Shown here piece after piece: positions 4,759-58,251 of a DNA stretch of 64,000 nt. The position numbers and the translations under genes were made by a program. Each line of letters begins with the position of its first letter. Positions within the stretch are counted from its first letter, which is position 1. The stretch is from contig NZ_CP094929.1 in the NCBI RefSeq assembly GCF_022869165.1, positions 3,348,001 through 3,412,000 on the forward strand, given 5' to 3'. A model generated the notes under the pieces. It saw nothing but the letters and a program-made list of their open reading frames with translations, searched no databases and was not told the DNA's origin. Source of the stretch: Sphaerochaeta associata (lineage in GTDB: Bacteria; Spirochaetota; Spirochaetia; Sphaerochaetales; Sphaerochaetaceae).

Positions 4759-5675
4759 GTAACCAGAATCACCCCTATGGCAACGAGGGGCAGGGAGGCA
4801 AGGTACTGCATGCGCAGTACCGATTCTCCCAGCACAAGGGCTGAGAGCAGGGTGCCGAAAACCGGGATGAGAAAATTGAAGATGGTGATGGAGCTGACCC
4901 TGTTGTACTTGAGCAGCTTCGTCCACAACGAGAAGGCGGCGGCGCTCAGACCTGCCATATAGGCCAAGAGGCCGAAGCCTGCAAGACTGCTTCTTGGAAA
5001 AGAAGCTCCCTGCAACAAGGCAATCCCCAACAGGACCGAACCACCCAGAAACAGTTGCAGGGCGGTAAGCAGCACAGGGTCGATGGATTTGCTCATCCGT
5101 TTGCTGTACAGTGAACTCATGCTGTGCAACAAGGCGGCTATGATGACAAAGCCCTCTCCCTGCAGGGAGACGGAAAGCGTCAGGCTTGATTCAAAATTAA
5201 CCATAATCACCGCCAAAAACCCAAAGAGAATTCCTACAGCCTTTCGTGTGCTGATCTTGTCGTTGCTATAGAAAAAATGAGCCAGGATTGCACTGAAGAA
5301 GACCGAGGAGGCATTGAGAATGGAGCTTTTCGCCCCGGTGGTGTAGGACACACCCACGTAAAAGAAGTAGTAGTGAACCGTCGTCTGCATCAATGAAAGC
5401 AGGGCGATGCTTCCCCACTGCCTTCGATCAAGACTTCGGGGACTTTGCTTTACCCCTTTCTGGAAAAAACGGACGAAAAAGACCAGCAGTCCGGCCAAGG
5501 CAAAGCGAAGCCCGGCAAAAGCCATTTTTGCAGCAGTATCATCCGCTCCTACGGAAAACAGCTCATAGCCAAGCTTAATCGCCGGATAGGCGCTTCCCCA
5601 CAGCAGTGCACAAAAGCTTGCCAGCAGCGCGGCAACCACCGGTCTGGCCAGTATCGATTGTTTTTCTAATTGCAT
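4731..5675 (-). CDS. EamA/DMT-superfamily membrane transporter
   Basis: A 314-residue protein with about ten hydrophobic segments arranged as two EamA repeats. The N-terminal repeat begins ALLASFCALLWGSAYPAIKLGY, typical of the RhaT/YdcZ drug-metabolite transporter superfamily. It is an inner-membrane permease or exporter for a small metabolite that the sequence does not reveal. It lies downstream of the HAD phosphatase gene, whose stop codon overlaps this start by 10 nt, so the two are co-transcribed on the minus strand. The stop is inside the 3' end of the convergent ABC exporter gene. Confidence 0.85.
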   Translation of the reverse strand: MQLEKQSILARPVVAALLASFCALLWGSAYPAIKLGYELFSVGADDTAAKMAFAGLRFALAGLLVFFVRFFQKGVKQSPRSLDRRQWGSIALLSLMQTTVHYYFFYVGVSYTTGAKSSILNASSVFFSAILAHFFYSNDKISTRKAVGILFGFLAVIMVNFESSLTLSVSLQGEGFVIIAALLHSMSSLYSKRMSKSIDPVLLTALQLFLGGSVLLGIALLQGASFPRSSLAGFGLLAYMAGLSAAAFSLWTKLLKYNRVSSITIFNFLIPVFGTLLSALVLGESVLRMQYLASLPLVAIGVILVTYSSSKAPV

Positions 5676-8465: not shown

Positions 8466-9754
8466 GCTTCTCCTGCCGCCTGATAGACCAAGTCCACCAG
8501 TTCAGCAATCTTATCACATTCCACCGAACAATAGGCAAGTCTGAACGTTACATCGGCAATATTGATGCATCCAACCTGATACTTGTCCAGTAAGTAACGA
8601 CGTAGAGCCTCGGCACTTCCTTTGGTCTTGAAGGCCATGAAGTACCCGCTATTGAAGGGATAGGGTGTCAGAAGAGGATTCCCCTCATGTTTCTTGAGCG
8701 CTTCCTTGAGGATCCGGTAGCGCTTTTCCATCTCCGTCTTTGCAGCAAGCTTGTCCGCCTCGTAGCGAGGGCCGTCCTTCATCGCCTTGGCCAGCAGACT
8801 CTGCCCGGGCTTGTCACAGTTGGAGACCGTGCTGCGGATGATGCCCAACGTCTTCTTGTTCAGCGCGTCAAAGTGAGCCTCGGTCAAATCCTTGCCGCCA
8901 TAGGTGATGAATCCGATACGGAACCCCCATACCATGTCTTCTTTGGTTGCAGCATCGCATTTGACGGCGAAAATGTTGGAGTGGGCGTTGCATAGGTAGG
9001 CAAACAGGCTCTCAGTGGCGGTCTCTTCCTCGAAGAAAAGGCCATAGTAGGCGTCGTCACTGATGACCATCAGCTTCATTCCACTCTCTGCAAGCTCGAT
9101 CAAGGCAGCAGCGATGGCTGCCATCTCGGCCTTGCTGGGAGTATAGCCGGTAGGGTTGTTGGGGAAGTTGAGAAGCAGGCGGGCTTTCCTGTCTGCAATC
9201 GACAGCAGTGCCTGTTTCATCCCTTCGACATTGAACCGTCCCGCATCCGTGTAGAGAGGGAAGGTAACAATACCAGCATTGACCTGATGGCCGAAGATCA
9301 ACTCATAGTTGTCCCATGCCAGATCGGGAATGACCAGCGTATCACCTTCTTGGGCGAACAGCTGGGCGAGCACGCTCAGTCCATGGGTGAGGCCTGAGGT
9401 AACGATGGGCAGCGAGATGGACTTGCCCGCAAGCGAAGGGTTCTTCACAAGCATCTGGGCTTTCCAAAGTGTCCTGAGCTGCTGGTCCCCTCCACCGGGG
9501 GCGTACGAGAAGAGTTCGGAGGGCTTGAAGGAGTTCTCGGCAAACTTGTTGTAAATATCCGACAGATACATGGGCTGGCCTTGTGAGGTGGCCATTCCGA
9601 TCGTGGCATTGAAACGAGTTGCTTTCTGGCCGGCTTCGGCGCTTTGGGCGACGATTCCCTTAGGGAAAAACATCCTTTGCCCGACGTCGGAGAGCATTGC
9701 ATCCACTATAGTGTTTTGCAAAGTCTCATTCAGTTCAGTGGCTAGTGCGTGCAT
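8456..9754 (-). CDS. Class I/II PLP-dependent aminotransferase
   Basis: A 432-residue fold-type I aminotransferase. Recognisable are the substrate segment YAPGGGDQQLR, the NFPNNPTGYTPS motif, the SDDAYYG motif, and CDAATKEDMVWGFRIGF with the PLP-binding lysine and conserved arginine. It transfers an amino group between an amino acid and a 2-oxoacid in the cytoplasm; the acceptor is not predictable beyond aspartate/tyrosine-type relatives. The start at 9754 has GGAGG about 8 nt upstream and so uses ordinary SD-directed initiation. It is the first gene of an operon with the ModE-like regulator and phosphofructokinase, which is an unusual pairing of amino-acid metabolism with glycolysis. Confidence 0.85.
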   Translation of the reverse strand: MHALATELNETLQNTIVDAMLSDVGQRMFFPKGIVAQSAEAGQKATRFNATIGMATSQGQPMYLSDIYNKFAENSFKPSELFSYAPGGGDQQLRTLWKAQMLVKNPSLAGKSISLPIVTSGLTHGLSVLAQLFAQEGDTLVIPDLAWDNYELIFGHQVNAGIVTFPLYTDAGRFNVEGMKQALLSIADRKARLLLNFPNNPTGYTPSKAEMAAIAAALIELAESGMKLMVISDDAYYGLFFEEETATESLFAYLCNAHSNIFAVKCDAATKEDMVWGFRIGFITYGGKDLTEAHFDALNKKTLGIIRSTVSNCDKPGQSLLAKAMKDGPRYEADKLAAKTEMEKRYRILKEALKKHEGNPLLTPYPFNSGYFMAFKTKGSAEALRRYLLDKYQVGCINIADVTFRLAYCSVECDKIAELVDLVYQAAGEAWN

Positions 9755-30776: not shown

Positions 30777-30793
30777 TTGGCACGCCTTTTGCA
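30777..30793 (+). promoter_or_regulatory. Sigma-54 promoter of first psp operon
   Basis: TTGGCACGCCTTTTGCA matches the -24/-12 consensus TGGCACG-N4-TTGC. Transcription should start near 30804, giving a leader of about 44 nt before pspA. Confidence 0.85.
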
Positions 30794-30847
30794 TAGCTAT
30801 CTACGTAACAACGAAACCACAACAGCCACCCGGTGGCGAAGGAGACA

Positions 30848-31525
30848 ATGATGCAGATGTTTAAAAGAATCGCCGATATCTTCAACTCACACGTCAATAG
30901 TGCTTTGGACAAGCTTGAAGATCCGGCAAAGATGATCAGCCTGATGATCACCGAACTGGAGGATACCCAGACCAAGGCCCGTTCTTCCATGGCAGCCCGT
31001 AAAGCGGAGCAAACAAGCCTGGAGAGAGAAAAGGCTGAGTTTGAGAAATCCGTCCTTCGTTGGGAAGATCGCGCAAAGCTGGCCATCACCAATGGTCGTG
31101 AGGACCTGGCCCGCGAAGCCCTGTTGGAGAAAAAGCATGCCGCCGAGCAAATCAAGCGCATCGAGGAGCAACTTGCCAACCTGACTTCAATTCTTGCCAG
31201 CCAGAGCGCCCAGCTCACCCAGATCGCCGATAAGCTCAAGGAAGTCAAGGACAAACAACAGATCCTCGTCCAGAGAGCCAGAAGCGCCAAGGAGAAGAAG
31301 CAGGTCGCCCAGACCCTGAAGAGCAGCGATAGTGCAGACCTTGCCCGTAAGTTCAGTGAGCTCGAGAGCAAAATCGAGCGGATGGAAGCCGATGCCGAAA
31401 TGGCAGGCTATCATGGATCACCTTCTGCGAGCGATGAGTTTGCAAAAATGGAATCCGATGAGGCCATCGAGGCCGAGCTTGCAAGCTTGAAGCAGTCCAT
31501 GACCAAGAAGAAGGAGCAGAAATAA
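30848..31525 (+). CDS. pspA: PspA/IM30-family envelope-stress protein (copy 1)
   Basis: A 225-residue PspA homologue, nearly all alpha-helical coiled coil. Family landmarks are MFKRIADIFNSHVNSALDKLEDPAKMI at the amphipathic N-terminus and AKLAITNGREDLAREALLEK in the helical core. PspA binds stressed membranes from the cytoplasmic side and, in enterobacteria, also inhibits PspF. The ATG at 30848 was chosen because AAGGAG precedes it at good spacing. It lies behind a sigma-54 promoter and is followed by a PspC gene that overlaps its stop by 1 nt. A second pspA lies 1.5 kb downstream in its own operon. Confidence 0.9.
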   Translation: MMQMFKRIADIFNSHVNSALDKLEDPAKMISLMITELEDTQTKARSSMAARKAEQTSLEREKAEFEKSVLRWEDRAKLAITNGREDLAREALLEKKHAAEQIKRIEEQLANLTSILASQSAQLTQIADKLKEVKDKQQILVQRARSAKEKKQVAQTLKSSDSADLARKFSELESKIERMEADAEMAGYHGSPSASDEFAKMESDEAIEAELASLKQSMTKKKEQK

Positions 31526-31728
31526 TGTACTACGACAGAGAAGAGGATCGTACCCTGTATCGTGAAAGACGGGGCATGATATTGGGAGTGTTCCAAGGAT
31601 TGGCCACCTGGTCGGGGCTGCCGGTACTCCTGCTCAGAATCATCGGCCTTATCCTGCTCTTCTCGGTTGGATTCGTTCCGATGGCCATCGCCTACATTCT
31701 GACAGCACTCATGCTGCCTTCACGATAA
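31525..31728 (+). CDS. Short PspC-domain membrane protein
   Basis: A 67-residue protein consisting of just a PspC domain: LYRERRGMILGVFQGLATWSGLPVLLLRIIGLILLFSVG and a second hydrophobic segment. PspC proteins sense or transmit envelope stress at the inner membrane and can bind PspA. The ATG shares one base with the pspA stop (TAATG). It lacks the C-terminal extension seen in the second copy at 34 kb. Confidence 0.82.
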   Translation: MYYDREEDRTLYRERRGMILGVFQGLATWSGLPVLLLRIIGLILLFSVGFVPMAIAYILTALMLPSR

Positions 31729-31772
31729 CCGAACCAGACATTTTTTCATGACTGTCATTGAGTTTCTTCCTT

Positions 31773-31806
31773 GAGCAGGGCATCATTTGATGTCCTGCTC
31801 TTCTTC
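31773..31806 (+). terminator. Terminator between first psp operon and pspF
   Basis: Twelve-base-pair hairpin (31773-31784 with 31789-31800; one G-U pair) with an ATTT loop and TTCTTCTT downstream on the plus strand. It contains the stop codon of the convergent pspF gene. Confidence 0.65.
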
Positions 31807-32802
31807 TTGCAGGCGGTCCTGATATTTTCGGTACAGTCCCCGCAGTTGGTCATAGGTCAGATTGAGCAGCTTTGCAGCCTCTTTCTGGTTGCCTGAAGCG
31901 TTCTTGAGGGCTTGTTTGAGATACTTGAGGTCCAGCTCAAGTCGTGCCGCCTCGAATTGGCTCAAATCGAGCTCTGCCTCCTGAAGGGGCAGGACCGGCT
32001 GTTGCTGACTCGTGCGCTTGAATGGATTGTCGAACGGGTTGAACTCAAGGTGTTCGATCAGTGAAGCGTCGCTGCGATAGACAGCCCGCTCAACAACATT
32101 TTTCAGCTCACGGACATTACCCGGCCAAGGATAGCAGAGCATCTGGGAGATGACGTCCTCACTGAACGAGGGCATCTCCTTGCGCCCGCACTCAAGGGTC
32201 ATCTTGGAGGCAAAATAGGTTGCCAACAGGATTATATCCTCGCCCCGCTCGCGAAGCGGGGGAAGGAAGAGCACCTCGAAGGAGAGGCGGTCCAGCAGGT
32301 CCTCCTTGAACTTTCCCTGTTCGCACAGGGTCGGCAGGTCGGCATTGGTCGCACCGATGATCCGTACGTTCGTTTCATGGGTCACCGACGATCCCACCCG
32401 CTCGTAGGTGCCGTACTCGACCACCCTGAGAATCTTCTCCTGGACTTCCAAGGGGATGAGACCGATCTCATCCAGAAAGAGCGTCCCGCCTTCGGCTTCC
32501 TCGAACCTGCCTTTGCGGGTCTTCTGCGCTCCGGTGAAAGCTCCTTGCTCATAGCCGAAAAGTTCTGTTTCAATGAGGGAGGGCGGAAGGGCGGCGCAGT
32601 TGACCGTTACCAGGTTCTGCTGCCACCTCGGGGAGAGGAAGTGGAGACGTCTGGCGGCAATTTCCTTGCCGCTGCCCCGTTCTCCTACAAGCAGCACCGA
32701 GCGATTCACGGTTGCAGCCCGGCTGAGCTTGCTTTGGAAGTCAAGAAAGACTTCACTCTCACCCAGGGGTTGCTGATTGTATCCGGCTTGCACGGCTTCC
32801 AT
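31783..32802 (-). CDS. pspF: Sigma-54-dependent activator PspF
   Basis: A 339-residue enhancer-binding protein with no N-terminal sensory domain, as in PspF. The AAA+ domain starts LGESEVFLDFQSKLSRAA. It has Walker A GERGSGKE, the sigma-54 contact loop GYEQGAFTGAQ, Walker B GGTLFLDEIG and the arginine-finger region. The C-terminus is a Fis-type HTH (NQKEAAKLLNLTYDQLRGLYRKY). The ATG at 32802 was chosen because GAGGTGGAG precedes it; an upstream frame adds an unrelated N-terminus. It lies between two psp operons with sigma-54 promoters, and one pair of putative binding sites sits just upstream of its own start, suggesting autoregulation as in E. coli. Confidence 0.9.
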   Translation of the reverse strand: MEAVQAGYNQQPLGESEVFLDFQSKLSRAATVNRSVLLVGERGSGKEIAARRLHFLSPRWQQNLVTVNCAALPPSLIETELFGYEQGAFTGAQKTRKGRFEEAEGGTLFLDEIGLIPLEVQEKILRVVEYGTYERVGSSVTHETNVRIIGATNADLPTLCEQGKFKEDLLDRLSFEVLFLPPLRERGEDIILLATYFASKMTLECGRKEMPSFSEDVISQMLCYPWPGNVRELKNVVERAVYRSDASLIEHLEFNPFDNPFKRTSQQQPVLPLQEAELDLSQFEAARLELDLKYLKQALKNASGNQKEAAKLLNLTYDQLRGLYRKYQDRLQEEEQDIK

Positions 32803-32816
32803 ACACTCCACCTCAC

Positions 32817-32851
32817 TTGGTAAATTTAGCCATCCTTGGCAGGTTTCACCA
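32817..32851 (+). promoter_or_regulatory. Candidate PspF upstream activation sites, second psp operon
   Basis: TTGGTAAATTTAGCCA (32817-32832) and TTGGCAGGTTTCACCA (32836-32851), both TGGY-N7-NCCA. They lie 100-135 bp upstream of the sigma-54 promoter and 15 bp from the divergent pspF start. Confidence 0.55.
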
Positions 32852-32948
32852 GCGTTAGGGTAGCACAGCTTGGTGAGAGCGAAAAGAGGAAGGGCCGCAA
32901 TCCTAGGCAAAATGGCGATTTAGATATTTTTCTTTAAACTTTTAATAG

Positions 32949-32965
32949 TTGGCACGATTCGTGCA
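32949..32965 (+). promoter_or_regulatory. Sigma-54 promoter of second psp operon
   Basis: TTGGCACGATTCGTGCA has a consensus -24 (TGGCACG) and a -12 TGC with one mismatch to TTGC. The transcription start should be near 32976, 38 nt before pspA copy 2. Confidence 0.82.
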
Positions 32966-33013
32966 TCTAGATTTTCACGAACACAGGTGGTACTACTACC
33001 TAAGGAGAGAAGT

Positions 33014-33670
33014 ATGGGAGTGTTTTCAAGATTCTTAGATATTGTCAACGCAAATATCAACTCACTGCTCGACAAGGCGGAAGATCCGGAAAAGATGATC
33101 AAGTTGATGATGCAGGAGATGGAAGATACCCTGATCGAGCTGAAGAGTTCCTGCGCTGCGAAAATGGCCAGCAGAGCCAAAACCGACCGCACCTACAAGG
33201 AGGCGCTCAGTGCTGTCGATCGCTGGCAGAGCAGAGCGGAGCTCGCCATCAGCAAAGGTCGGGAGGATCTGGCCAGGGAAGCGTTGCTGGAACGAAAGCA
33301 GGCAAAGGCGGCCCTTGATCAGCTGCAGGCTGAGCTCAGTGCATACGACGACTTGATCAGGACTGCAAAGAGCGAGATCAATCAGATCGAGGACAAGCTT
33401 ACCACGGTCAAGCAGAAGTATCAGATGATGGTTGAGCGGGCCAAGCGTGCTCGCGAAGAACAGGCTGCACAGGAGGCTCTCAAGCGTGCCAACGACAGCA
33501 GCACCTTCGGTCGGTTCAGCGATATGGAAGAGAAGATCGACCGGATGCAGGCAAACAATGAGATGAATCGGCCCACCAATTCTTCTCTCGACGACAAGTT
33601 CAGGGACCTGGAAGAGATGGATGACATTGATGCCGAAATCGCTGAACTGCGCAAGCGCGCCGGCTTGTAA
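33014..33670 (+). CDS. pspA: PspA/IM30-family envelope-stress protein (copy 2)
   Basis: A 218-residue PspA homologue. It begins MGVFSRFLDIVNANINSLLDKAEDPEKMIKLMMQEMEDTL, the classical PspA N-terminus, and has RAELAISKGREDLAREALLERK in the core. AAGGAGAG precedes the ATG at 33014. It heads a four-gene operon with PspB-like, PspC and DUF4097 proteins. Two paralogues under separate sigma-54 promoters but near one pspF suggest different envelope targets or stoichiometries. Confidence 0.9.
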   Translation: MGVFSRFLDIVNANINSLLDKAEDPEKMIKLMMQEMEDTLIELKSSCAAKMASRAKTDRTYKEALSAVDRWQSRAELAISKGREDLAREALLERKQAKAALDQLQAELSAYDDLIRTAKSEINQIEDKLTTVKQKYQMMVERAKRAREEQAAQEALKRANDSSTFGRFSDMEEKIDRMQANNEMNRPTNSSLDDKFRDLEEMDDIDAEIAELRKRAGL

Positions 33671-55131: not shown

Positions 55132-56220
55132 ATGGTAACGAAGGAAATCATCCAGCAGGTTCCGAAAGTGGAACTGCATGACCATCTTGACGGTGGATTG
55201 AGGATCCAGACCATTCTGGAGCTTGCCAAGGAGCAGCACGTTGAGCTTCCCAGCAATGATCCGCAGAAGTTGCATGACTGGTTTGTCCGCGGTTGCAAGC
55301 AAAAAAGTTTGACTCTGTATCTGGAACCCTTCGGTGTAACCACCCAGGTAATGCAGACCCAGCAGGCCCTCGAGAGGGTTGCCTTCGAAGCGGTTGAAGA
55401 TCTGGCGCGCGAACATGTCTGCTATGCAGAAATTCGTTTTGCTCCCATTCTCCATGTCAACAAGGGCTTGAGTCTCGAACAGGTGGTACAGGCTGTGCTT
55501 GATGGACTGCAGCGGGGAACAAGGCAGACAGGCATGCCCACCGGCTTGATTTTGTGTGCAATGCGCAACCAGAGCCCGAGCATCAGCCACACCATTGCAG
55601 AACTTGCAGTTGCCTTTGCCGACCGGGGTGTTGTCGGATTCGACCTGGCAGGTGATGAGATCGGCTACCCTCCCAAGAAACATCTGGAGGCTTTCCAGTT
55701 CATCCGCAACAAGAACTTCAACATTACCATTCATGCAGGGGAAGCCTTCGGCGTGGAGTCGATCTGGCAGGCGGTACAGCTGTGCGGCGCCCACCGCATC
55801 GGACACGGTGTGCGTCTGGTCGAAGACATGGGGCTTGAAGGGTCAAGAATCGATGAGATGGGTTCGCTTGCGAATTTCATCCTCGACCGCCGCATCCCGA
55901 TGGAGATGTGCCTGACCAGCAACGTAGGAACAGGAGCCGCCAAGGACTATGCAAGCCATCCCTTCCCTATCTTGTTCCGCAACAAGTTCCGTGTATTTTT
56001 GTGCAGCGACAACCGCCTGATGAGTGATACCAATCTCACCCGTGAGATGGAACTCGCCGTACAATATTATAACCTGAACATTCGTGACCTGGAGAAAATC
56101 ACCATCAATGCGATGAAGTCAGCTTTCATCCATCACGACCAGAAGCTTTCCATCATCTACGATGTGATCAAGAAAGGATATTTGGCCATCAGGGAGCAGT
56201 ACGGTATCACCGATTATTAA
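55132..56220 (+). CDS. add: Adenosine deaminase
   Basis: A 362-residue metal-dependent amidohydrolase that converts adenosine or deoxyadenosine to inosine in purine salvage. The N-terminal metal site is KVELHDHLDGGL (HxHxDG). The central HAGE (residues about 203-206) and GAHRIGHG motifs are present. The last conserved aspartate is in VFLCSDNRLM, where the usual SDDP is altered to SDN. The ATG at 55132 is 6 nt from the -10 box. The stop overlaps the convergent rhomboid gene by 4 nt. Confidence 0.9.
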   Translation: MVTKEIIQQVPKVELHDHLDGGLRIQTILELAKEQHVELPSNDPQKLHDWFVRGCKQKSLTLYLEPFGVTTQVMQTQQALERVAFEAVEDLAREHVCYAEIRFAPILHVNKGLSLEQVVQAVLDGLQRGTRQTGMPTGLILCAMRNQSPSISHTIAELAVAFADRGVVGFDLAGDEIGYPPKKHLEAFQFIRNKNFNITIHAGEAFGVESIWQAVQLCGAHRIGHGVRLVEDMGLEGSRIDEMGSLANFILDRRIPMEMCLTSNVGTGAAKDYASHPFPILFRNKFRVFLCSDNRLMSDTNLTREMELAVQYYNLNIRDLEKITINAMKSAFIHHDQKLSIIYDVIKKGYLAIREQYGITDY

Positions 56221-56855
56221 AGGGTTCGCTTGAACACGTCGATGGGGTTGATACGCATCCTGATCCTGCAATACAGATACCCGAAAACCAATCCGCTCAG
56301 ATGCGTCAGGTGAGCTACGTTGCCGCCTCTGCCGAACACATGGCTGGACAGTTCGATGATGGCATAGAGAATGACCAAGATCGGGGCCCGAACGGGAATG
56401 AAGCCAAACACAAAGATTACCGAATAAGGGTAGAAGACGGCGAACATCAGCATCACCCCGTAGATGGCTCCTGAAGCTCCTACCAGAATTACGTTGGTTC
56501 CGGCCAGGTAATAGCTGACAAAACTGGCAATACCGCCGAACAATCCGGTCAACAGGTAGAAAAGCAGAAATTCCTTGCTGCCGATTCTTTTCTCGACCAT
56601 CGAACCAAAAATGAAAAGGCTGAGCATGTTGAACAGCAGATGATTAAAACTTCCATGCACAAACATGTAGGTAAACAGCTGCCACAGATAGCCGTTGAGC
56701 ACGAAGGAAGGAATCATTGCCAGGTAGTAGGCACTACGAGGATACAGAAAAGCGGTAAGCAGATAGATCAAGGCATTGATCACCACCAGCTTCAAGGTAT
56801 AATTCTTATATGTACCATCCCGGAATCTCCGGTTGATGAGAGATGCTTTCTTCAT
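56217..56855 (-). CDS. Rhomboid-family intramembrane serine protease
   Basis: A 212-residue protein with about six membrane helices. The catalytic serine is in VGASGAIYGVML (GASG), and the partner histidine is in NVAHLTHLSGLVFG. The oxyanion residues HGSFNHLLFNML are also present. It cleaves membrane proteins within or near the bilayer; the substrate is unknown. The ATG at 56855 is 7 nt from a TACTGT -10 box, so the mRNA should be leaderless. Its -35 box adjoins the enhancer sites of the sigma-54 RNA array. Confidence 0.88.
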   Translation of the reverse strand: MKKASLINRRFRDGTYKNYTLKLVVINALIYLLTAFLYPRSAYYLAMIPSFVLNGYLWQLFTYMFVHGSFNHLLFNMLSLFIFGSMVEKRIGSKEFLLFYLLTGLFGGIASFVSYYLAGTNVILVGASGAIYGVMLMFAVFYPYSVIFVFGFIPVRAPILVILYAIIELSSHVFGRGGNVAHLTHLSGLVFGYLYCRIRMRINPIDVFKRTL

Positions 56856-56891: not shown

Positions 56892-56938
56892 TTGTGCAAT
56901 TTTTGCACAATAATCAGAGGGTGTGCAAGCAATGCACA
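56892..56938 (+). promoter_or_regulatory. Two palindromic enhancer sites upstream of the sigma-54 RNA array
   Basis: TTGTGCAATTTTTGCACAA (56892-56910) and TGTGCAAGCAATGCACA (56922-56938) both fit TGTGCA-N5-TGCACA. Centres are 29 bp apart and lie about 116 and 87 bp upstream of the first predicted RNA start, a normal distance for a sigma-54 activator. They do not match the psp-type sites, so a different activator is likely. Confidence 0.6.
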
Positions 56939-56990
56939 GTGCTTTGGGAGGAAAATCCTATCCAGACACCGTCATTTGAAGGATTTCAAG

Positions 56991-57007
56991 TTGGCATGCT
57001 AATTGCA
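56991..57007 (+). promoter_or_regulatory. Sigma-54 promoter, RNA A
   Basis: TTGGCATGCTAATTGCA: -24 GG and -12 GC with correct spacing; one mismatch (T for C) in the -24 element. Confidence 0.8.
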
Positions 57008-57016
57008 TTGTTATAA

Positions 57017-57114
57017 GTAGAACAGAGCAACATTTTTTTCATACTCCTCCTTTTTCATACCGACAGGGTGCCAAGAGATTTACCCCAATCAGCTTTTGGC
57101 ATCCTTCTTTTTTT
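57017..57114 (+). ncRNA. Sigma-54-dependent small RNA A
   Basis: Predicted RNA of about 98 nt starting 12 nt after the -12 GC. It opens with (U)AGAACAGAGCAAC, a U7 run, and CUCCUCCUUUUU. It ends in a 12-bp hairpin (57066-57077 with 57093-57104, two G-U pairs) whose loop contains ACCCCA, followed by UUCUUUUUUU. There is no AUG. It is the first of three tandem copies and the most diverged of them. Function is inferred from the anti-SD-like CCUCCUU and its siblings. Confidence 0.75.
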
Positions 57115-57233
57115 GTACTTATTCTGCGCATTTTTGTATTGCTGTAACTTTTTTTCACACTGGGTCTTTCAGTTCTACCTTCAACTCCATTACATTAAGC
57201 TATATAGCAAGTCCATATGTACAACTTATTAAG

Positions 57234-57250
57234 TTGGCACGCAAGTTGCA
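57234..57250 (+). promoter_or_regulatory. Sigma-54 promoter, RNA B
   Basis: TTGGCACGCAAGTTGCA is a full match to TTGGCACG-N4-TTGCA. Confidence 0.88.
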
Positions 57251-57259
57251 GTATAATTA

Positions 57260-57365
57260 GCAGAACAGAGCAACAGTTTTTTTCAAACCTCCTTAAAGTG
57301 TGATTTCTTTGGTGCCAGCGGTTCTCTCTCCCCACCCCACAAATTCCGCTGGCACCATCTTTTTG
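57260..57365 (+). ncRNA. Sigma-54-dependent small RNA B
   Basis: Predicted RNA of about 106 nt. It begins CAGAACAGAGCAACAG, then U7, CAAACCUCCUUAAAG, a spacer, and a perfect 11-bp terminator stem GGTGCCAGCGG/CCGCTGGCACC (57311-57321 with 57346-57356). The 24-nt loop contains CCCCACCCCACA, and AUCUUUUUG follows. It shares its 5' end, U run, CCUCCUU core, stem start GGUGCCA and C-rich loop with RNA C. There is no reading frame. Confidence 0.8.
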
Positions 57366-57373
57366 CCCTCCGG

Positions 57374-57408
57374 TGTGCAATCGAGAAACCATGTGAAGAA
57401 ATTGCACA
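57374..57408 (+). promoter_or_regulatory. TGTGCA and TGCACA half-sites upstream of RNA C
   Basis: TGTGCA (57374-57379) and TGCACA (57403-57408), 29 bp apart, the same helical spacing as between the two full palindromes upstream of RNA A. They lie about 105-135 bp upstream of the RNA C start. Confidence 0.45.
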
Positions 57409-57483
57409 GGTGTCACCCATCTACATAACTCAAATACATGTCTTAAAGTATTTATACATAGCTAATAGTTGTCTATTTAATAC

Positions 57484-57500
57484 TTGGCATGCATGTTGCA
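57484..57500 (+). promoter_or_regulatory. Sigma-54 promoter, RNA C
   Basis: TTGGCATGCATGTTGCA: -24/-12 consensus with one mismatch. Confidence 0.82.
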
Positions 57501-57510
57501 TCATGATTGA

Positions 57511-57613
57511 CAGAACAGAGCAACCGTTTTTTCAACCTCCTTTTCGTGTTTTACCTTGGGTGCCAGTGAGAAAAACCTTCCCACCCCACATATTCTCACT
57601 GGCACCTTTCTTG
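57511..57613 (+). ncRNA. Sigma-54-dependent small RNA C
   Basis: Predicted RNA of about 103 nt. It begins CAGAACAGAGCAACCG, then U6, CAACCUCCUUUUCGUG, and a perfect 13-bp terminator stem (57559-57571 with 57594-57606). The loop holds CCCACCCCACA, and UUUCUUG follows. The block U6-C-AACCUCCUUUU is nearly identical to that of the 6.5-kb RNA. The terminator tail overlaps the -35 box of rlmE. There is no AUG or usable frame. Confidence 0.8.
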
Positions 57614-57639
57614 TACCCTTTTGCCTGCTTTGGTATAGT
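57611..57639 (+). promoter_or_regulatory. rlmE promoter, predicted leaderless
   Basis: TTGTAC (57611-57616), 17-nt spacer, TATAGT (57634-57639), 6 nt to ATG 57646; no SD. Confidence 0.6.
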
Positions 57640-57645
57640 CTAGAT

Positions 57646-58251
57646 ATGGCAACCAGCAGAAGAGACCGTGCAGACTCCTATACAAAACGTGCACACAAGG
57701 AAGGCTACCCTGCACGCTCCGTCTACAAACTTGAAGAGCTGCAGCAGAGTTTCAAGCTCATCAAGAGCGGCGATACCGTATTGGATGTGGGTGCAGCTCC
57801 AGGGTCGTGGACGCTCTATACCCATAATGAATTGATCAAGGGCAAGGGAACAATTATTGCAGTCGACCTCAATCCCCTGAACCTCAATCCGGTACCTGTA
57901 ACCGTCACATCCTATGTCGGGGATGCATTCGGAAAAGAGATGAGGGAAAAACTCATCTCCCACGGCCCCTACGATGTCATCATCAGTGACGCCGCCCCCA
58001 TGACGATGGGAAACCGGGCAGTCGATACTGCACGCAGTGAGAATCTTGCCGAGCAGGTTGTCTACCTTGCCCAGGACCATCTGAAGGTACATGGAAATCT
58101 AGTGGTCAAAATCTTTCAGGGGGGAGGACAGGTTGAACTGCTCAAACTCATGCGCACGCTCTTTGCAAAAGTTAAACCTTTCAAGCCGAAAGCCTGCAGG
58201 GATGACTCCTTCGAGATTTATCTGGTAGGCTTGGATCGGTTGGAGAAGTGA
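57646..58251 (+). CDS. rlmE: 23S rRNA 2'-O-methyltransferase RlmE/FtsJ
   Basis: A 201-residue Rossmann methyltransferase with the FtsJ K-D-K-E tetrad. RARSVYKLEELQQSF-like N-terminus (ARSVYKLEEL), the SAM loop VLDVGAAPGSWTLY, the catalytic ISDAAPMTMG, and VVKIFQGG with the second lysine are clear. It methylates U2552 of 23S rRNA late in large-subunit assembly. The ATG at 57646 gives the conserved N-terminus; the frame stays open upstream into RNA C but without family similarity. Its stop is 1 nt from the end of the convergent TPR gene. Confidence 0.9.
   Translation: MATSRRDRADSYTKRAHKEGYPARSVYKLEELQQSFKLIKSGDTVLDVGAAPGSWTLYTHNELIKGKGTIIAVDLNPLNLNPVPVTVTSYVGDAFGKEMREKLISHGPYDVIISDAAPMTMGNRAVDTARSENLAEQVVYLAQDHLKVHGNLVVKIFQGGGQVELLKLMRTLFAKVKPFKPKACRDDSFEIYLVGLDRLEK

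Follow-up and report, generated by a model that had tools for sequence, protein, structure and literature searches.

The analysed stretch of Sphaerochaeta associata DNA (64,000 nucleotides, called the window below) carries, between a rhomboid protease gene and the rlmE/ftsJ methyltransferase gene, an array of three tandem units that were located by a repeat search and are spaced by 243 and 250 bp (Table 1). Each unit starts with a perfect sigma-54 box of the TTGGCA-N6-TTGCA type, which is followed about 11 bp on by AGAACAGAGCAAC (the same letters in all three copies), a U-run, the motif CCUCCUU and a hairpin followed by a T-rich tail. The 5' ends, inferred by counting 12 nt downstream of the C of the -12 element, are predicted at about 57018-57020, at 57261 and at 57511. 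The feature extends beyond the repeat, with enhancer-like palindromes starting at 56893. On the other side, a possible sigma-70 promoter of rlmE overlaps the tail of unit 3; its -10 part is present also in loci L002 and L006, and a consensus scan did not flag this promoter.

Table 1. Observed and predicted features of the array and its neighbours (window coordinates)
Feature	Position	Strand	Remarks
Rhomboid protease gene, left neighbour	56217..56855	-	Pfam PF01694
UAS1a, enhancer-like palindrome TGTGCAATTTTTGCACA	56893..56909		kept in 12 same-genus loci; top genome-wide match
UAS1b, enhancer-like palindrome TGTGCAAGCAATGCACA	56922..56938		genus conservation and genome scan
Sigma-54 -24/-12 box, unit 1	56991..57007	+	
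Predicted sRNA 1, type 1	57019..57115	+	anti-SD CCTCCTT 57046-57052; terminator 57067-57104 plus T-run
UAS2 TGTAACTTTTTTTCACA	57143..57159		position kept in 12-locus alignment
Sigma-54 box, unit 2	57234..57250	+	
Predicted sRNA 2, type 2	57261..57364	+	anti-SD 57288-57294; terminator 57310-57357, loop CUCUCUCCCCACCCCA
UAS3 region	57375..57408		half-site TGTGCAA 57375-57381 and TGTGAAGAAATTGCACA 57392-57408
Sigma-54 box, unit 3	57484..57500	+	
Predicted sRNA 3	57511..57615	+	anti-SD 57536-57542; terminator 57559-57606
Possible sigma-70 promoter of rlmE, TTGTAC-N17-TATAGT, extended -10	57611..57639	+	by eye
rlmE/ftsJ methyltransferase gene, right neighbour	57646..58251	+	Pfam PF01728

The first-pass annotation had described three tandem repeats of about 245 bp, each with a -24/-12 promoter and with a common start, U-run and core, and all of this was borne out (the boxes read TTGGCATGCTAATTGCA, TTGGCACGCAAGTTGCA and TTGGCATGCATGTTGCA). 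The terminator hairpin that it assigned to each copy is present in all three, but the ACCCCA loop is exact only in copies 2 and 3; copy 1, a distinct sub-type (type 1), has the shorter loop ACCCCAAU. Its statement that no copy has a reading frame does not hold literally, for mechanical ORFs overlap the region, but protein coding appears unlikely because copy 2 lacks an ATG and one-base indels occur in the U-run and in the loops among the RNA copies.

The folding z-scores of the three window RNAs ranged from -3.1 to -3.9 relative to shuffled sequence. Among 27 copies from 12 loci of the genus the pairs of the terminator stem were retained at 99.5%, and two-sided compensatory changes were observed at 5 of 11 stem pairs among copies. 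Types 2 and 3 also have a C-rich terminator loop similar to CUCUCUCCCCACCCCA. Every window RNA contains CCUCCUU, which is complementary to the Shine-Dalgarno sequence and was predicted to lie in a hairpin loop in 45 of 64 type-2 sequences (for example UCAUAC[CUCCUUUA]GUGUGA). This hairpin was judged by single-sequence folding; in the window's genus its stem contains one A.G mismatch, and elsewhere the changes are mostly one-sided.

Conservation and distribution of the promoters and RNAs

Seven matches to a strict sigma-54 pattern (up to two mismatches) were found in the window, against 1.4 expected. The -24 GG/-12 GC arrangement at fixed spacing is present in all three units, and the fourth perfect box of the window is a pspA promoter. 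The sequence TGGCA[C/T]-N6-TGC was present within 45 bp upstream of 96 of 98 distinct sRNA copies, the other two being off by one base, at a background of 443 in 114,000 windows (0.4%). The RpoN gene was found in every one of 26 genomes of the genus.

A strict pattern combining promoter and RNA start was matched in 12 of 24 genus genomes, with two to three tandem matches in each, and the reversed control gave no match. All 12 of these loci have copies 1 and 2, and only three have copy 3. Identity across the loci was 98% for RNA 2 and 90% for RNA 1, but fell to 56% in the linker and to 53% in the 60 bp that precede the first promoter. In 84,980 species the exact pattern was found on 57 contigs, all from spirochaetes, including Sphaerochaeta halotolerans and Bullifex porci. 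A covariance model built from the genus copies (R1) detected the RNA in 54 of 395 genomes of the class, all belonging to the window's family, and a model from a wider set (R2) in 86, seven of them outside the family. Such a search among family relatives had been proposed by the first-pass annotation, and R2 recovered the RNA, in one to four copies, from 79 of the 92 family genomes listed. The annotation had stated that its reading would be refuted if promoter and stem were not conserved in related genomes; they are, which speaks in its favour. Four tandem type-2 copies and no type-1 copy were seen in genome G016 (L073 776-1959, minus strand of the locus).

Two further families, f17 and f4 (the latter with two tandem copies), have sRNA copies with sigma-54 boxes and TTTCACA half-sites. 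Their position corresponds to that of the array: one flank holds a rhomboid-like and a polyprenyl-synthase-like gene (gene names here rest on the appearance of the proteins rather than on Pfam). In f17 rlmE is on the other side of the sRNA, and in f4 no rlmE was present within about 2.5 kb downstream. Synteny with rlmE is kept in most genomes, and copies away from rlmE were found at L083 and L086.

Matches in families f3, f22, f2 and f11 are similar RNAs without a sigma-54 box, with weak E-values that leave homology unresolved; a pgi-like gene adjoins three of them. Four such box-less RNAs (L231 2797-2883, on the minus strand of that locus; L234 1461-1547; L235 1206-1295; L236 1265-1353) carry a C-rich loop in the terminator as well as a CCUCCUUU hairpin, and a TGTAAC element recurs upstream of them. 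It is possible that the RNAs without a box are distant relatives under a different promoter.

Since promoter, body and terminator are kept together in about 80 genomes while the flanks are not, and since copies also occur away from rlmE, the comparison strongly supports the reading of the three units as sigma-54-dependent small-RNA genes, transcription and RpoN dependence being inferred. A phage origin was considered and rejected, viral contigs giving no match. No match to Rfam 15 was obtained in the window at the gathering cut-off, and a search of L001 and its relatives at E up to 1 returned nothing but one irrelevant weak RNase P fragment. No paper describing the family was found in a literature search that missed most subscription journals. 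The remark of the annotation that no described family in spirochaetes has such a layout is consistent with both results.

Upstream palindromes and candidate activators

Each unit has, 60-130 bp upstream of its sigma-54 box, palindromes of 17 bp or half-sites that fit TGTGnAA-N3-TTnCACA. These sites are kept across the genus and in nearly all other genera inspected; no clear UAS was found at the divergent sigma-54 copy of L083. With at most one mismatch from TGTGCAANNNTTGCACA the whole genome contained the two unit-1 sites and one site within an ABC-transporter ORF. The latter, at 737498, was taken as a chance occurrence. By their conservation, and in the absence of binding data, the palindromes qualify as putative upstream enhancer sites for an activator.

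Among the proteins encoded in the genome, five have a clear sigma-54 activator domain: one is PspF-like, one is PrpR-like, in one no DNA-binding domain was detected, and the last two are response regulators, each with a partner kinase. Both response regulators are kept in nearly all sampled relatives (with some regulators left untyped in a few genomes), and the UAS of the sRNA genes was not found at the operon of either, where it could have indicated autoregulation. One of the two pairs, with a membrane histidine kinase, adjoins a TolC-MFP-MacB-type operon, a neighbourhood that is kept in several genera and in f17. The identity of this MacAB-linked regulator is 67-73% in f4 and f17, the families where sigma-54 sRNA copies also occur, and about 40-60% in most other families; one f3 genome has a close relative of it, and a sigma-54 sRNA copy was not found there. 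The kept neighbourhood and the higher identity in f4 and f17, while the Rrp2-like pair is class-wide, lead us to favour the MacAB-linked pair, by a modest preference, as the inferred activator of the sRNAs.

The same sRNA promoters could instead be activated by the Rrp2-like regulator, an NtrC-type protein paired with a PAS kinase (L045). It was present class-wide and in the genomes checked, and Rrp2 is a sigma-54 activator that has been studied in Borrelia (PMC4014564). This assignment nevertheless looks doubtful, for the distribution of the sRNAs tracks the MacAB-linked regulator better, and a different set of genes seems to suit the Rrp2-like protein: an upstream motif similar to GTGTGTCA, which by eye is unlike the UAS of the sRNAs, is shared by the gene of a sigma-70-type factor and two hsp20-like genes. 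Since the motif differs, and since about 3.4 kb separate the sigma gene from the Rrp2-like regulator, these stress genes are suggested as targets of that regulator. Together with their sigma-54 boxes (L054 ~5253-5267, L055 ~5327-5341, L045 ~8606-8620) the motif suggests a sigma-54 heat/stress regulon.

Elsewhere in the genome, sigma-54 boxes were seen at pspA and in a PrpR-linked transporter cluster, besides the hsp20-like and sigma-factor genes. A divergent PspF-like activator gene lies between two pspA-like genes (window 30777-33670); the first of these two has a perfect box in front of it (30777), the second a weaker one (32949). A sigma-54 activator-like protein of 376 aa without a detected DNA-binding domain adjoins a FeoB-like gene (L048 5756-6886), and short activators of similar size occur in other family members.

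Possible function and relation to known sRNAs

We consider it rather probable that the array encodes redundant antisense sRNAs under the control of sigma-54 and an NtrC-type two-component system, with transcription, regulator and targets all inferred. The array would yield three RNAs of about 95-105 nt. An NtrC-type response regulator, most likely the partner of the membrane kinase encoded beside the TolC-MFP-MacB-type transporter, would bind TGTGnAA-N3-TTnCACA, hydrolyse ATP and open the sigma-54 promoters together, and a single signal would thereby give a burst of redundant sRNA. The link of this regulator to a transporter points to an envelope signal or a toxic compound. C-rich single-stranded segments, namely ACCUCCUU (in a small hairpin loop in most other genera) and, in types 2 and 3, the terminator loop, would then pair with the Shine-Dalgarno sequences or G-rich leaders of selected mRNAs and block their translation without Hfq. 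The sRNAs thus probably turn down other genes by covering ribosome-binding sites. Of the 26 genus genomes, only the MAG G004 gave an Hfq match; it lies on a short contig (L061) of this fragmented assembly and is possibly contamination.

No target was identified, as simple complement searches gave no convincing excess over the controls. The C-rich loop had 9 complements in the genome, against 10 on the reversed-pattern control. For the 5' element the numbers were 38 (three of them self-matches) and 19. CCUCCUU alone would not be specific, for about a quarter of the window ORFs of at least 150 aa have a Shine-Dalgarno match of at least 6 nt near a possible start.

Alternatively, the sRNAs may not pair with mRNAs and may bind a protein or act as a decoy, either as a sponge of the CsrB/CrcZ kind or as a mimic of the 16S rRNA 3' tail, by which factors associated with the ribosome would be titrated. 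The most invariant parts of the RNA are the 5' element ACAGAGCAACAG and the U-run, yet the remaining genomic complements of the element lie mostly inside ORFs, not in leaders. ACCUCCUUU, which equals the end of 16S rRNA, counts for a decoy, and several copies would suit titration. CrcZ and CrcY are RpoN-linked sponges (PMC6292655). No known protein-binding motif is repeated within one RNA, unlike in CsrB or CrcZ; by inspection each RNA has one 5' element and one CCUCCUU. In addition, Hfq, the partner of CrcZ, is missing, and the C-rich segments lie in loops as in antisense sRNAs. Protein binding or titration remains possible, if unlikely. A sigma-54-controlled leader or attenuator of rlmE is very improbable even though only about 30 bp or less separate rlmE from the last terminator and the synteny is mostly conserved, because every unit terminates on its own and copies occur elsewhere, including the f4 array, and rlmE seems to have a separate -10 element beyond the last unit.

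The antisense reading can be compared with several known systems. The five LhrC sRNAs of Listeria monocytogenes (LhrC1-5) are near-identical, 111-114 nt long and multicopy like the array, and all depend on one two-component system, LisRK, which responds to cell-envelope stress; through a redundant CU-rich motif they impede lapB translation, for which Hfq is dispensable (PMC4132741). The LisR-dependent promoters have not been described as sigma-54 promoters, the motif is UCCC and not CCUCCUU, and the host belongs to the Firmicutes. No sequence homology to LhrC is indicated, and no Rfam family of any kind matched, in a copy of Rfam that may or may not include an LhrC model. Qrr sRNAs are Hfq-dependent and multicopy in several vibrios, where the gene copies are dispersed. 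Qrr1 of Vibrio is made from a TGGCA-N7-TGC sigma-54 promoter with an NtrC-type regulator bound at upstream sites (PMC10162802). Qrr sRNAs differ from the array RNAs in serving quorum sensing and have no sequence similarity to them; the array RNAs fail the criteria of that family, with no Rfam match and with Hfq absent from 25 of the 26 genus genomes. By analogy, the array would work like LhrC under Qrr-type control, yet it is neither.

CrcZ and CrcY exceed the array RNAs in length and use repeated CA motifs to titrate Hfq-Crc. Like the array RNAs they are non-coding, linked to RpoN and present in more than one copy, in Pseudomonas and Azotobacter (PMC6292655). The array RNAs have no such CA motifs and no Hfq to bind, and they do not carry the many repeated protein-binding motifs per RNA by which sponges of the CrcZ/CsrB type are recognised. 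RepG has a C/U-rich terminator loop and acts in a bacterium without Hfq. It is an sRNA of Helicobacter pylori that targets a G-rich mRNA leader (PMC8295292), and it differs in being single copy, not described as sigma-54-dependent and without homology to the array.

We regard the array as a new family of predicted sRNAs, in which redundant tandem copies and anti-Shine-Dalgarno motifs are combined with sigma-54 control in hosts apparently without Hfq. To our knowledge, regulatory RNAs have barely been explored in spirochaetes except Borrelia and Leptospira. We can only tentatively propose that a bank of redundant, Hfq-free anti-Shine-Dalgarno sRNAs is the main or only conserved output of a two-component/enhancer system dedicated to it, and that this sigma-54 output defines the lineage of Sphaerochaetaceae and two neighbouring families. 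If the box-less RNAs of other spirochaete families, which have a similar 5' hairpin and CCUCC loops, are an older form, the promoter type would have been swapped during evolution. The family bears on the role of sigma-54 in these spirochaetes and on the reason why sRNA genes stay in tandem copies, and, with a promoter type, an enhancer motif and a locus that are all fixed and with an activator that is probable, it offers a test case for post-transcriptional control without Hfq.
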